A program made the position numbers and the translations under genes. Positions 20,250 through 51,286 of a DNA stretch of 64,000 bases are shown here, one piece after another. This DNA comes from Claveliimonas monacensis. GTDB taxonomy: Bacteria; Bacillota; Clostridia; Lachnospirales; Lachnospiraceae. The notes under the pieces are model-generated. The model was not told where the DNA came from and did no database searches. It saw only the letters and a list, made by a program, of their open reading frames with translations. Location of the stretch: positions 62,001-126,000 of the forward strand of contig NZ_JADCKL010000004.1 in the NCBI RefSeq assembly GCF_014982975.1. The letters are read 5' to 3'. The stretch's first letter is position 1. Each line of letters begins with the position of its first letter.

Positions 20250-20322
20250 AATTGCGGACGTAATACTTTTAAAAAGTATTACGTCCGCAATTAACATTAT
20301 TGGTGTACCATTGTATCAGTTG
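20250..20322 (+). repeat. REP-like palindromic element, copy A
   Basis: A perfect 21-bp inverted repeat (20250-20270 with 20272-20292, one-base centre) containing GGACGTAATACTTTT, followed on the right by a tail with GGTGTACCATTGTATCAGTTGT. The tail resembles the tails of the three other copies near 42.7, 43.6 and 51.2 kb. It fills the whole gap between the converging aroA and phosphatase genes and could act as a bidirectional terminator. Confidence 0.85.
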
Positions 20323-41212: not shown

Positions 41213-42616
41213 TTACATCTCTCGGATAAACGCCTTGTACCCCTTGTATGCCTCGTACACATCCGCCTTGCTTGTGATCTCCCAGGGAGCGTGCATGCAC
41301 AGCACGGCCACGCCGCTGTCAATGACTTCCATCCCATAATTTGCCATGATGTAGGCAATAGTTCCGCCACCGCCTGCGTCTACTTTTCCAAGCTCCGCGA
41401 ACTGGTAAGCCACATTCTGCTCATCCATGGCGCGGCGGATCTGTGCAAGGTACTCGGCATTGGCATCATTGGATCCGCTTTTTCCCCTGCTGCCTGTGAA
41501 TTTGTTGAACACCAGGCCCTTGGCAAAAAAGGCGGAGCTCCTCTTCTCAAACACTTCCGCGTACATGGGATCGTAGGCAGCGCTCACATCAGAAGAAAGC
41601 ATTTTGGAATTCTGCAGGGCCCGGCGCAGCTTCAGCTCTGACTCTCCCTCTTTAAGCGCCATCACCTCAGCCACTGTATTTTCAAAGAACCGGGAATGCA
41701 TGCCTGTGGCGCCAACGCTGCCGATCTCTTCCTTATCTACCAGGATACAGCAGGCGGTCTTTTTCAGATCAGCCGTGTCCATCATGGCGAACAGGGATGT
41801 GAATGCGCAGACTCTGTCGTCCTGTCCGTAGGCCATGATCATGCTGCGGTCAAGTCCGCAGTCCCTGGACCTTCCTGCTGGAACGATTTCCAGCTCAGCG
41901 GAAAAGAAATCTTCTTCCTCAATCTGGTACGTTTCTTTAAGAAGCTGCAGGATCTGTTTTTTCACTGCTTCTTTTTCTGCTTTGTCCTGGGCGTCTTCTT
42001 CCTCTTTTTTAAGTGGTCTGCTTCCCACCAGAAGATCCAGCTTTTCTCCCTCAATGACAATGTTCGCCTTTTTCTCCAGCTGCTTTCCTGCCAGGTGCAC
42101 AAGGAGGTCTGTCACTGCAAAGACCGGATCCTCCTCCTTTTCTCCTATGCAGATATCCACGGTTGTCCCGTCTTTTTTCACAACCACACCATGAAGCGCC
42201 AGAGGCAGGGTCACCCACTGGTACTTTTTGATGCCGCCGTAATAGTGAGTATCCAGATAGGCAAGTTCCTCATTTTCATAGAGAGGATTCTGCTTTACAT
42301 CAATGCGGGGCGAGTCAATGTGGGCGCCCAGAATATTCATACCCTCCTCCAGTGGATTCTCGCCAATGTGGAAGAGGATAACGCTTTTTTCCATGCACAC
42401 TGCGTAAACTTTGTCTCCTGCTGAAAGGCTGCCGCCGGATGTGATCACTTCCTTCAGATCACGGTATCCGTGTTCCACGGCAATTCGGACAGCGGCCTTT
42501 ACACACTCCCGCTCCGTCTTGCCCTCGTCCAGGCATGCTTTGTATAAACTGCTGATGCGCTCCAGCTCGCCGAGCTCCCCTTCGGAGTAGGTAAGCCATG
42601 CATTTGTTCTTTCCAT
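41213..42616 (-). CDS. apeB: M18 family aminopeptidase
   Basis: 467 residues, matching M18 (aspartyl aminopeptidase-type) enzymes. Zinc-binding blocks: LGAHIDSPRIDVK near residue 95, DKEEIGSVGATGMHSRF (Asp plus Glu-Glu catalytic pair) near 300 and CMHAPWEITSKADVYEAYKGYKAF at the C-terminus. The AGGAGG site precedes ATG 42616. It removes N-terminal, often acidic, residues from peptides in the cytoplasm. It precedes ppdK on the same strand. The upstream edge holds REP copy B, only about 50 bases from the start. Confidence 0.92.
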   Translation of the reverse strand: MERTNAWLTYSEGELGELERISSLYKACLDEGKTERECVKAAVRIAVEHGYRDLKEVITSGGSLSAGDKVYAVCMEKSVILFHIGENPLEEGMNILGAHIDSPRIDVKQNPLYENEELAYLDTHYYGGIKKYQWVTLPLALHGVVVKKDGTTVDICIGEKEEDPVFAVTDLLVHLAGKQLEKKANIVIEGEKLDLLVGSRPLKKEEEDAQDKAEKEAVKKQILQLLKETYQIEEEDFFSAELEIVPAGRSRDCGLDRSMIMAYGQDDRVCAFTSLFAMMDTADLKKTACCILVDKEEIGSVGATGMHSRFFENTVAEVMALKEGESELKLRRALQNSKMLSSDVSAAYDPMYAEVFEKRSSAFFAKGLVFNKFTGSRGKSGSNDANAEYLAQIRRAMDEQNVAYQFAELGKVDAGGGGTIAYIMANYGMEVIDSGVAVLCMHAPWEITSKADVYEAYKGYKAFIREM

Positions 42617-42667: not shown

Positions 42668-42757
42668 GGACGTAACCCTTTTAAAAAGTATTACGTCCGG
42701 AATTAAACTAACTGGTGTGCTTTTATGAAATATTCCCCGTGTAATTGTGTCAGTTGT
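42668..42757 (+). repeat. REP-like palindromic element, copy B
   Basis: Left arm 42668-42682 and right arm 42684-42698 (two mismatches), then the tail TTAAACTAACTGGTGTG (42702-42718), and after a 19-base insertion a second tail part GTGTAATTGTGTCAGTTGT (42739-42757). The latter contains the stop codon of the transposase gene (42750-42752). It is inverted relative to copy C on the other side of the gene. Confidence 0.85.
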
Positions 42758-43541
42758 TTTTTACCTGATTTCTTACTTTTGAATATAGAAGTTTAGATTT
42801 GCGCTGTGATACATGCAGTGTTTGTTGAATCCTTTCCATATATTCTTCCCGATATTCTTTTTCTTCAAACACCTGGCTAAGATAATTCATCCTTGCCTGC
42901 GCATACATTTCTCTTGCGATTCTTTCTGCAATCTCAATCCTCTGCTGTTCCATTTCCTCATAGATATCCTGGAAAATTTCGTACTTCCTCTTTCCATGGA
43001 AATCATCAAAAGACATCCGATCACAAAATCTCTGTTTTACTAGTTGTATACTGTCTGGATGTATCAGCGGATCTTTCCCAGAAAAGAACTCTTTCATACT
43101 GCTAAAGCGGTAATCTCCTGCATGCACCACCATTCCGGCTTTTACCGGATTCATATGAATATAGCGAAGACAATTCCAGAAATAAGATTCTGTCTCAATA
43201 CATTCACTTGTAAAACGATTCTGAAACACATGCCCATTACGGTTATGTTTATAATTATAATAAAATGCGTATTCTGCCAGGATCCTGGCCATGAACAAAG
43301 ATAAAACCTGAAGCTCTGCCCCAATCATAATATGCACATGATTCGACATGATACAGTAGGCATAGATTTTTACTGCATATTTGCTCTGATATTTTCTGAT
43401 AATTTTCTGGAAATATTTCTTTTCTCTTGTCTGATTAAAATTATTTTCCCGGGCTATTCCTTTTCCAACAACGTGGTATATGCCGGTACTACTCTCCTGT
43501 CTTTTTCTCTGTGGCAAAATATCTCTCCTCTCACTTGCCAC
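42750..43541 (-). CDS. REP-associated tyrosine transposase (RAYT, Y1 family)
   Basis: 263 residues. The Y1_Tnp (HUH) fold is clear: IYHVVGKGIARENNF near residue 21, AYCIMSNHVHIM with the HUH pair His68-x-His70, and AEYAFYYNYKHNRNGHVFQNRF with probable catalytic Tyr91, followed by YFWNCLRYIHMNPVKAGMV. These are RAYT-type signatures; ordinary IS200 transposases lack the NPVKAG block. The about 110-residue C-terminal helical tail ends in an HTH-like segment (HVSQRKSKLLYSKVR) that could bind the REP hairpin. Such proteins nick single-stranded hairpin DNA and are thought to spread REP sequences while themselves staying single-copy. It is flanked by REP copies B and C. Confidence 0.9.
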   Translation of the reverse strand: MASERRDILPQRKRQESSTGIYHVVGKGIARENNFNQTREKKYFQKIIRKYQSKYAVKIYAYCIMSNHVHIMIGAELQVLSLFMARILAEYAFYYNYKHNRNGHVFQNRFTSECIETESYFWNCLRYIHMNPVKAGMVVHAGDYRFSSMKEFFSGKDPLIHPDSIQLVKQRFCDRMSFDDFHGKRKYEIFQDIYEEMEQQRIEIAERIAREMYAQARMNYLSQVFEEKEYREEYMERIQQTLHVSQRKSKLLYSKVRNQVKNN

Positions 43542-43553
43542 AGGGACATTTCA

Positions 43554-43613
43554 CACAATTACACACCAGTTAGTTTAATTCCGGACGTAATACTTTTGCA
43601 AAGTATTACGTCC
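43554..43613 (-). repeat. REP-like palindromic element, copy C
   Basis: Arms 43583-43596 and 43600-43613 are perfect over 14 bp with a 3-base centre. Reading the minus strand, the tail runs TTAAACTAACTGGTGTG then TAATTGTGT, ending about 12 bases before the transposase start. It is the transposase-side partner of copy B and closes kbl 20 bases after its stop codon. Confidence 0.87.
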
Positions 43614-43633: not shown

Positions 43634-44830
43634 TTACAATCCCATCTCATCTCTTACTTCCATGAAGCATTTCACGATGAAATCGATGTCTTCTTTCGTG
43701 TGGCTTGCGCACACCTGGGTACGGATTCTTGCCTTGCCCTTCGGTACAACCGGGTAGGAGAAGGCAACTACATATACGCCCTTGTCCACCATACGTTTTG
43801 CGAATTCTGCTGCTGTCTTCTCATCGTACAGCATAACCGGTACGCAGGGATGTGTGCCGGGGATTACGTCAAAGCCGTTGTCCACAAGAAGTTTTCTGTA
43901 GTAAGCTGTCACTTCTTCCAGATGATCCCGAAGTTCTGTGCTCTCATCCAGCATCTTGAACATCTCAATGCTGGCGCCTGCAATAGCGGGAGCAAGGGAG
44001 TTGGAGAACAGGTACGGACGGCTTCTCTGGCGGAGAAGGTCAATGATCTCTTTGCGGCCGGATGTGTATCCGCCTGACGCACCGCCGAGTGCTTTTCCAA
44101 GAGTACCTGTGATAATGTCCACACGGCCCTGCACGCCGCAGTACTCGGGAGTTCCCCGGCCTGTCTTTCCGACGAATCCGACTGCATGACTGTCATCCAC
44201 CATAACCAGTGCATTGTACTGGTCTGCCAGATCGCAGATACCTTTCAGGTTACAGATAATTCCATCCATGGAGAACACGCCGTCTGTAGCGATCAGTTTG
44301 ATCCTGGCTCCCGCCTCATCTGCCTCTTTCAGCTTAGCCTCCAGGTCTTCCATGTCGTTGTTTTTATAGCGGTATCTCTTTGCCTTACACAGGCGCACAC
44401 CGTCAATGATGGAAGCATGGTTCAGCTCATCGCTGATCACTGCGTCATCAGCTGTCAGAAGTGTCTCGAAAAGTCCGCCGTTGGCGTCAAAGCAGGAGGA
44501 ATACAAGATGGTGTCATCTGTTCCAAGGAAATCGGAGATAGTCTTCTCCAGCTTCTTGTGGATATCCTGTGTTCCGCAGATGAATCGCACGGATGCCACG
44601 CCAAATCCTTTTTCGTCATATGTTTTCTTGGCAGCCTCGATCAGCCTCGGGCTGTCTCCCAATCCCAGGTAGTTATTTGCACACATGCAGAGGAGTTCTC
44701 TTCCATCTTCCATGGTCACTCTCGCTCCCTGAGGAGAAACGAAAGGCGCCTCGCCTTTAAACAATCCTGCTTCCTTGATCCCCTCCACTTCTTTTGCATA
44801 AATGCTTAAAATATCGTCTTTACGTGCCAT
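43634..44830 (-). CDS. kbl: Glycine C-acetyltransferase (2-amino-3-ketobutyrate CoA ligase)
   Basis: 398 residues, a PLP-dependent alpha-oxoamine synthase. [19 protein letters not shown] (about 205-222) and the PLP-lysine block [15 protein letters not shown] (Lys near 240) are conserved. An N-terminal NNYLGL motif follows. It splits 2-amino-3-oxobutanoate with CoA into glycine and acetyl-CoA, the second step of threonine catabolism. The first step is encoded by tdh 75 bases upstream in the same operon, and a serine/threonine transporter gene is divergent, making a threonine-use module. Confidence 0.95.
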
Positions 44831-51189: not shown

Positions 51190-51227
51190 ATTTACTCCTT
51201 TTTATTATATTTCACAGGGGTTGGTAC

Positions 51228-51286
51228 ACAATTACACACCAGTTAGTGTAAATCCGGACGTAACACTTTTTAAAAGTGTTACGTCC
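51228..51286 (-). repeat. REP-like palindromic element, copy D
   Basis: Perfect 15-bp arms 51256-51270 and 51272-51286 with a 1-base centre. Reading the minus strand the tail includes ACTAACTGGTGTG then TAATTGTGT. It starts 4 bases after the M16C stop codon and ends about 40 bases before the era start. Confidence 0.87.

Follow-up and report, generated by a model that had tools for sequence, protein, structure and literature searches.

What kind of system does a transposase gene form when it lies between two inverted palindromes, and similar palindromes are found elsewhere in the same genome? The question arises from a 64,000-nucleotide stretch of the Claveliimonas monacensis genome (contig NZ_JADCKL010000004.1, positions 62,001 to 126,000), referred to here as the window. 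A preliminary description, made from the sequence alone, had proposed a REP/RAYT-like system. We consider it quite probable that the locus belongs to a REP/RAYT-type system of Lachnospiraceae, in which a Y1 HUH transposase (RAYT) gene at a fixed locus goes with about 30 scattered hairpins. The system is real, and it is neither an artefact nor an ordinary insertion sequence.

The transposase and its locus

The RAYT open reading frame encodes 263 residues from a GTG start (Table 1). The protein matches PF01797 with 43.8 bits and NF047646, the NCBIfam model of REP-associated tyrosine transposases, with 83.6 bits (cut-off 80); against NF033573, the IS200 model, it scores 21.7 bits, below the cut-off of 55. 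Its HUH histidines are His68 and His70, as previously proposed, and both are invariant in an alignment of 33 sequences (A2) and in one of 20 closer relatives (A1). The nucleophile is Tyr127, within RYIHMNPVKAG, and not Tyr91, which had been named as the probable catalytic residue. Tyr127 does not vary in either alignment (33 of 33 and 20 of 20 sequences), and it pairs in alignment with residue 115 of TnpArep (PDB 4ER8), which we take to be the catalytic residue of that protein. Tyr91 is nearly invariant among the 20 closer relatives, not in the wider set of 33, and is Phe in 4ER8. The two alignments, in which His68, His70 and Tyr127 are numbered H67, H69 and Y126, omit relatives with an internal stop (L103, L107, L111 and L115) and several truncated or distant loci.

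Passages of Nunvar et al. 2010 (PMC2817692) describe an NP(L/V)(R/K)xG motif beside the nucleophile and a Thr near the N-terminus. The motif is present within RYIHMNPVKAG, adjoining Tyr127, and T18 is nearly invariant in the 20 closer relatives (A1). The residues by which 4ER8 contacts GTAG (W94, E100, H101 and R104) align with F, S, E and E. The C-terminal 128 residues gave no Pfam match at E<=10, and one of 20 sequences gave a weak match to HTH_72 (E 0.073); the suggestion of an HTH-like tail that reads the hairpin is left unsupported.

The gene lies between two genes that we take to encode 2-amino-3-ketobutyrate CoA ligase (KBL) and an M18-type aminopeptidase. Within 1.5 kb on each side, both neighbours are present at 13 of 34 RAYT loci, spread over eight genera, and M18 without KBL at three more; the 13 include L103 and L107, which have a stop inside the match, so two of these genes may be broken. 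Between the genome of the window (G000) and a related complete chromosome (G002), RAYT is 65% identical and KBL 95%. No plasmid record covers 80% of the RAYT protein, and the single match in phage records covers 51%. The gene has apparently been kept vertically at a fixed locus. Its dN/dS is 0.14 against genome G010, 0.07 against G003 and 0.11 against G002, rough values, two of the three having saturated dS (1.5 and 2.2); the ratio against G004 was not computable. Between G000 and G010, dS is lower in the RAYT gene (0.08) than in the adjoining KBL gene (0.24) (L083 vs L082), which hints at recent recombination at the RAYT locus.

G000 holds a single RAYT gene; the several near-identical copies that the preliminary description would have taken as the mark of an ordinary IS200/605 element are not found. 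Its sole other Y1 gene is an ordinary IS200/IS605 TnpA (L081, G000:C12:173193-173549; 157.5 bits, cut-off 55), so both kinds coexist in this genome. Across the genus (the Claveliimonas group), six of 11 genomes carry a single RAYT match (65-100% identity) and the remaining five carry none.

Table 1. Features of the window, and positions of an element inserted into palindromes of a related genome
Feature	Position	Strand	Evidence or remarks
M18-type aminopeptidase gene (presumed)	41213..42616	-	Conserved neighbour
Left palindrome, tail rightward	42668..42698	+	Sequence, pattern match; two mismatched pairs
Left tail, box 1 TTAAACTAACTGGTGTG	42703..42719	+	TAATTGTGT after it degenerate
Left tail, second box TAATTGTGT	42742..42750	+	About 22 bp further in; likewise in relatives
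Y1 HUH REP-associated tyrosine transposase (RAYT) gene	42750..43541	-	PF01797, NF047646, 4ER8 alignment, invariant residues
Right tail, TTAAACTAACTGGTGTG-TAATTGTGT	43553..43578	-	TTAAACTAACTGGTGTG at 43562-43578, TAATTGTGT directly after at 43553-43561
Right palindrome, tail leftward	43583..43613	-	ssDNA fold, z -7.4
KBL gene (presumed)	43634..44830	-	Conserved neighbour
Solitary palindrome, tail rightward	20256..20286	+	Same aligned site in G010, G003 and G002
Solitary palindrome (51256-51286), tail leftward	51226..51286	-	Same aligned site in G010 and G003
Inserted element in G001	L182:11438-13025, L183:8576-10163, L184:7639-9226, L189:3798-5386		

The hairpins and their co-occurrence with the gene

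The window contains eight strand-matches of the palindrome, which mark four places, against none in 100 shuffles. Two of these places bracket the RAYT gene as inverted palindromes of 31 bp each, with conserved tails that both point into the gene, and the other two lie 22 kb to the left and 8 kb to the right; on all of these points the earlier account is borne out. The left end has a degenerate first box, and for this reason its TAATTGTGT lies about 22 bp further in. A one-mismatch copy of TTAAACTAACTGGTGTG adjoins the rightmost palindrome, at 51235-51251. When folded as single-stranded DNA, the right palindrome (Table 1) and the solitary ones (z -7.2 and -5.3) stand out from the left one, whose two mismatched pairs leave it at only -2.0.

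We searched the whole genome (3.0 Mb in 36 contigs) for GGACGTAA-N-TTACGTCC, allowing loops of 2-30; every match has a loop of 15. The search, which the preliminary description had called for, gave 29 palindromes for one RAYT gene, and none with the reversed pattern, so that the further copies on which the earlier reading depended do exist. Two more, degenerate and with a damaged foot, lie on contig C12. The resulting 31 copies are a minimum, since more degenerate ones may be missed, and comprise two that flank the gene, six in three doublets and 23 singlets, the last counted without a search for degenerate partners. The hairpins of each doublet are about 240 bp apart with their tails inward, giving about 270 bp overall with a common interior. 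The doublets (L062:1490-1775, L072:1515-1800 and L078:1515-1800) are alike along their whole length and carry in the middle a conserved A-run/stem/T-run hairpin, like a bidirectional terminator, with two-sided changes at four of 22 predicted pairs in five sequences and a slightly unfavourable covariation term.

Conservation starts about 7-9 bp ahead of the 31-bp core and ends in the tail. A single element spans about 75 nt: a palindrome of about 45 bp, then one or two TGGTGTGTAATTGTGT boxes that form a directional tail. The tail consensus varies by lineage and resembles the RAYT gene's own ends: it is TAACTGGTGTGTAATTGTGT in G000 and G010, and CGGTGGGTAAAATTGC with a second similar box about 22 bp further on in G001 and G002. 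At a distance of 8-24 nt from the hairpin, GGTG is present on one side only: in 24 of 29, 19 of 26, 11 of 20 and 13 of 23 copies, against none of these 98 on the opposite side. This zero partly reflects the use of the tail to set orientation.

Pairing extends beyond the core more than in shuffles at several offsets and with several pair types; at G000 offsets -1, -2, -4 and -7 no more than 11 of 500 shuffles matched it, while offsets 1-7, which the search pattern fixes, and offset 0, where it allows only A/G and C/T, carry little information. The earlier account tacitly assumed a classical REP, but the unpaired GTAG foot of such repeats is absent: GGACGTAA is itself part of the stem, and the palindrome runs on beyond it. 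At L065:1547 (G000:C6:12146) symmetry continues past the 31-bp core into the flanks, for about 17 bp either way, which makes the whole inverted repeat about 65 bp. In some copies the two arms belong to different core types; the left palindrome of the gene, for instance, has CCC in one and GTA in the other. As to intrinsic terminators as the main source of the singlets, the stems lack a T-run at their foot. A simple ORF script places 19 of the 31 copies between co-directional genes, four between convergent and one between divergent genes, and seven inside an ORF. Five of these seven ORFs have 52-83 aa; the others, of 204 aa (L060) and 456 aa (L061), we read as start-extended or opposite-strand frames. 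The palindromes are nearly all intergenic.

The palindromes accompany the gene. The six genus genomes with RAYT carry 29, 20, 23, 29, 26 and 26 palindromes of this pattern and the five without it carry none (Fisher 0.002, with relatedness ignored), an association that may reflect one or two events on the tree. One palindrome site lies next to what is presumably the 3' end of rnpB, and no palindrome is present there in the four RAYT-less genus genomes, out of five, in which the site could be read; the downstream neighbours differ, so this site does not separate loss from a palindrome that was never present. In G002, 28 palindromes carry GGACGTAR and 23 carry GGACGTAA, so that this genome has a second, GGACGTAG-type set (for example G002:C1:37397-37427 and 103583-103613), of the kind dominant in other genera.

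The family-wide set comprised 397 genomes drawn evenly from a larger group. At E<=1e-8, RAYT is matched in 79 of them, and some have two to four matches, which are divergent. Any GGACGTAR match occurs in 31 of the 397, with one or two each in 14 of them. Among the 16 genomes with at least six such palindromes (maximum 59), 15 have a RAYT match and the exception is 82% complete; with the cut at four or more, the palindromes are found in 15 of 79 RAYT-positive and two of 318 negative genomes (15 of 17 with RAYT). Both cuts were picked after seeing the table, and the reversed control reaches four in one genome. A strong palindrome of differing sequence (score at least 11) lies within 350 bp of 18 of 28 family RAYT loci, a count made without a shuffled control, and the remaining ten have none or a weak one. 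The fixed locus, the low dN/dS and this co-occurrence are consistent with the earlier proposal that the RAYT is domesticated and has its own repeat family. The RAYT may also maintain the palindromes.

Shared sites, changing cores and presence/absence events

We found shared sites by matching the flanks with the element masked, keeping unique pairs only. Of the 29 palindromes in G000, 23 have a unique counterpart in G010, 23 in G003 and ten in G002, and at these sites the hairpins align base for base; the flanks of the ten G000-G002 pairs are 68-84% identical. Many base pairs have changed on both sides with the pairing kept: 10 against G010, 28 against G003 and 34 against G002. Flank mismatch rates are 0.10, 0.14 and 0.22 in the same order, and as a rough expectation (rate squared/3, times 299, 299 and 130 pairs) about 1, 2 and 2 such changes would arise by chance. 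Pairs present in one genome only number 13, 31 and 22.

The same altered pair recurs at many sites. Against G003, 11 of 23 shared sites have an outer pair of A-T where G000 has G-C; against G002, seven of ten have C-G at position 9 where G000 has T-A. The direction is polarised in neither case. The gene-flanking palindromes of G003 also have A-T at the outer pair. At four sites a two-base core block, CC/GG or TA/TA, differs between G000 and G003 on both arms, and at several, for example L076, the locus-specific foot and tail are kept while the core has changed. The outer pair is half-changed, on one side, in six of 25 G000-G003 pairs. These comparisons show that elements need not move to change, and that the two arms of a core often change together, in the same direction at many sites of a genome. 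The average likeness between paralogues equals or exceeds that between orthologues in three of 24 pairs with G010, six of 25 with G003 and eight of 11 with G002 (of 24, 26 and 11 pairs, 24, 25 and 11 were aligned, and some targets were used twice). Orthologues are mostly still closer than paralogues against G010 and G003, so homogenisation is slow.

Some copies differ in presence. L071 and L074 occur in G000 only, and L102 and L170 in G010 only; the near flank of L076 was not found in the stretch of G010 examined. G000, G003 and G004 lack L171 of G010 at the corresponding site, an intergene too divergent to place junctions and hence not a precise empty site. At L058 about 108 bp are absent in the comparison with G010, with junctions that do not fall at matching element ends, and we do not count it as a clean event.

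The comparison of strains for empty sites, also proposed in the preliminary description, yielded one clean case. G001 (Claveliimonas bilis c-25) and G002 are about 99% identical around most copies and share 19 of 20 (G001) and 19 of 23 (G002) palindromes. For one singlet of G001, G002 lacks a cleanly bounded stretch of about 77 bp that reaches from the tail to the far hairpin foot and adjoins ACAG; at the matching place, the end of the RAYT gene itself in G002 has ACAG-GGTATTTTGC. This single event, the sole sharp insertion or excision junction and one whose direction is not polarised, suggests, together with the gene end, a cut next to ACAG. The four palindromes found in G002 only are not empty sites in G001. 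Each is interrupted there by an inserted IS4-family element of 1588-1589 bp (Table 1), which sits in the centre of the palindrome and whose 21-bp ends are the same at all four sites. It is flanked by an 11-bp duplication, exact at two of them and imperfect at two. The transposase of the L182 copy, one of the four, was scanned and belongs to the IS4 family (NF033592, 154.9 bits). The palindrome-centred element resembles ISPpu9, described in passages of PMC8450116 as a REP-homing insertion sequence.

Possible mechanisms and known relatives

How might the enzyme and its hairpins work together? The RAYT would recognise the hairpin in single-stranded, probably lagging-strand, DNA, and direction would be taken from the tail boxes rather than from an unpaired GTAG foot. 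Tyr127 would then cut and rejoin, and a single element would rarely be inserted or removed. The parallel change of cores could come from copying or conversion between elements, or from selection at each site to match a fast-changing enzyme; candidate routes for rewriting a core are copying started by a RAYT cut, per-site selection and hairpin template switching. We put forward only tentatively the idea that the RAYT edits hairpin cores in place, a form of concerted evolution in which about 30 mostly immobile sites stay matched to a fast-evolving enzyme and mobility is a rare by-product.

It is possible, though doubtful, that the palindromes are instead host sites, for RNA processing, nucleoid organisation or regulation, to which a RAYT-derived protein merely binds, and that their cores are shaped by per-site selection and not by transposition or conversion. 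Most positions have long been fixed, as the sites shared with G003 and G002 indicate, the locus-specific foot and tail are often kept as the core changes, and the dN/dS of RAYT is low; half-changed outer pairs and mixed-arm copies such as the gene's left palindrome also speak for it. The difference between CC/GG and TA/TA blocks on both arms at four sites is harder to reconcile with host sites, as is the clean presence or absence of a 77-bp element between nearly identical genomes; gene contexts, compared by ORF arrangement, vary, moreover, with no common one seen. Symmetric change might also be a mutational artefact. Template switching within hairpins is a known mutational process that perfects imperfect palindromes during replication, and it would need no RAYT; the symmetry does reach locus-specific feet with several pair types, and extends well beyond the core at L065. 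It would not explain why the same altered pair appears at so many sites or why palindromes co-occur with the gene, and we regard an origin by template switching without the RAYT as improbable.

We find it highly improbable that the locus is an ordinary IS200/IS605 element whose internal deletions (MITEs) make up the dispersed copies, even though inverted ends bracket a gene of the Y1 family and the three doublets have a common interior and inward tails. Copy number (one per genome in all six RAYT-bearing genus genomes), synteny across eight genera and the IS200 model score speak against an ordinary element. Against it also stand the plasmid and phage results, the divergence of multiple RAYT matches within family genomes, and the fact that the dispersed copies are for the most part lone hairpins and not deleted elements.

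A REP/RAYT-type system thus remains the reading that we prefer, and its nearest kind is TIRYT/TIRtron, followed by RAYT/REP and REPIN. Passages of Di Nocera et al. 2013 (PMC3733652) and of Quentin et al. 2018 (PMC6006769, subclass 2.1) describe RAYT-like genes with a long C-terminal extension and with TIRs rather than GTAG REPs, as here, where a gene for 263 aa lies between inverted 31-bp palindromes with tails on both sides; the likeness to subclass 2.1 is judged by TIRs and length and not by those authors' profiles. A C-terminal DnaA_C or HTH domain is a further mark of this group; scans of the present sequences gave the one weak HTH_72 match described above. GGGGAC occurs within the longest TIR match of nine of 40 relatives examined and resembles GGGGWSAS, the TIRYT motif in the published passages. 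TIR families are called 'moderately abundant' there, and some are self-complementary (PMC3733652). The present family differs in that its TIR is a long near-perfect palindrome with a boxed tail, dispersed in 20-29 copies per genome in the genus and, as GGACGTAR, in up to 59 in the family.

With the classical REP/RAYT systems of Gammaproteobacteria, as set out in passages of PMC2817692 and exemplified by E. coli TnpAREP (PDB 4ER8), our system shares the HUH and Tyr residues, the NP(L/V)(R/K)xG motif, palindromes in inverted orientation on both sides of the gene, a single gene for each repeat family, faster evolution of that gene than of its neighbours, co-evolution of repeat and gene, and an abundance tied to the gene. 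It lacks an unpaired GT(A/G)G foot, a boxed tail marks one side, the host belongs to the Bacillota and there are fewer copies: about 30, where REPs usually exceed 100 in that account. The CGTC REPs described in part of Di Nocera et al. 2013 have an unpaired CGTC tag at one end, a stem of 8-9 bp and no transposase, whereas here CGTC is part of a longer stem and the repeats enclose a transposase gene. REPINs (Bertels & Rainey 2011, PMC3116915) are likewise non-autonomous hairpins credited to a domesticated single-copy transposase, and a few inverted doublets exist here too. In the passages on P. fluorescens, however, the doublet is the unit and singlets are remnants; here singlets make up 23 of 31 copies against three doublets, and the clean presence/absence event concerns a singlet.

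In passages of Nunvar et al. 2010, suitable RAYTs are reported from Gammaproteobacteria only. The word 'Firmicutes' is absent from the main texts of PMC3733652 and PMC6006769, in which 'Clostridi-' appears 0 and 2 times, respectively, and a search of the open literature, a scope that leaves out a possible description in Bertels et al. 2017, gave no report of a REP-RAYT system in Firmicutes or Lachnospiraceae. For subclass 2.1, the relevant passages of Quentin et al. (PMC6006769) state that automatic and manual searches gave no REP-like sequences. The family described here would provide one for a transposase of subclass 2.1 or TIRYT appearance, where none had been found. REP/RAYT systems are known mainly from Proteobacteria, and this hairpin-transposase system would extend them to Lachnospiraceae. 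Part of PMC8049555 notes little evidence on the benefit that REP/RAYT systems bring, and the family touches on the open questions of why such a transposase is kept so long and how the repeats persist. In several related gut species, individual repeat sites can be paired as the enzyme and the repeats change, a favourable setting for testing how such repeats are kept up. The particular value of the family is that it separates the persistence of a site from the turnover of its sequence, and the relocation of a repeat from its rewriting in place.
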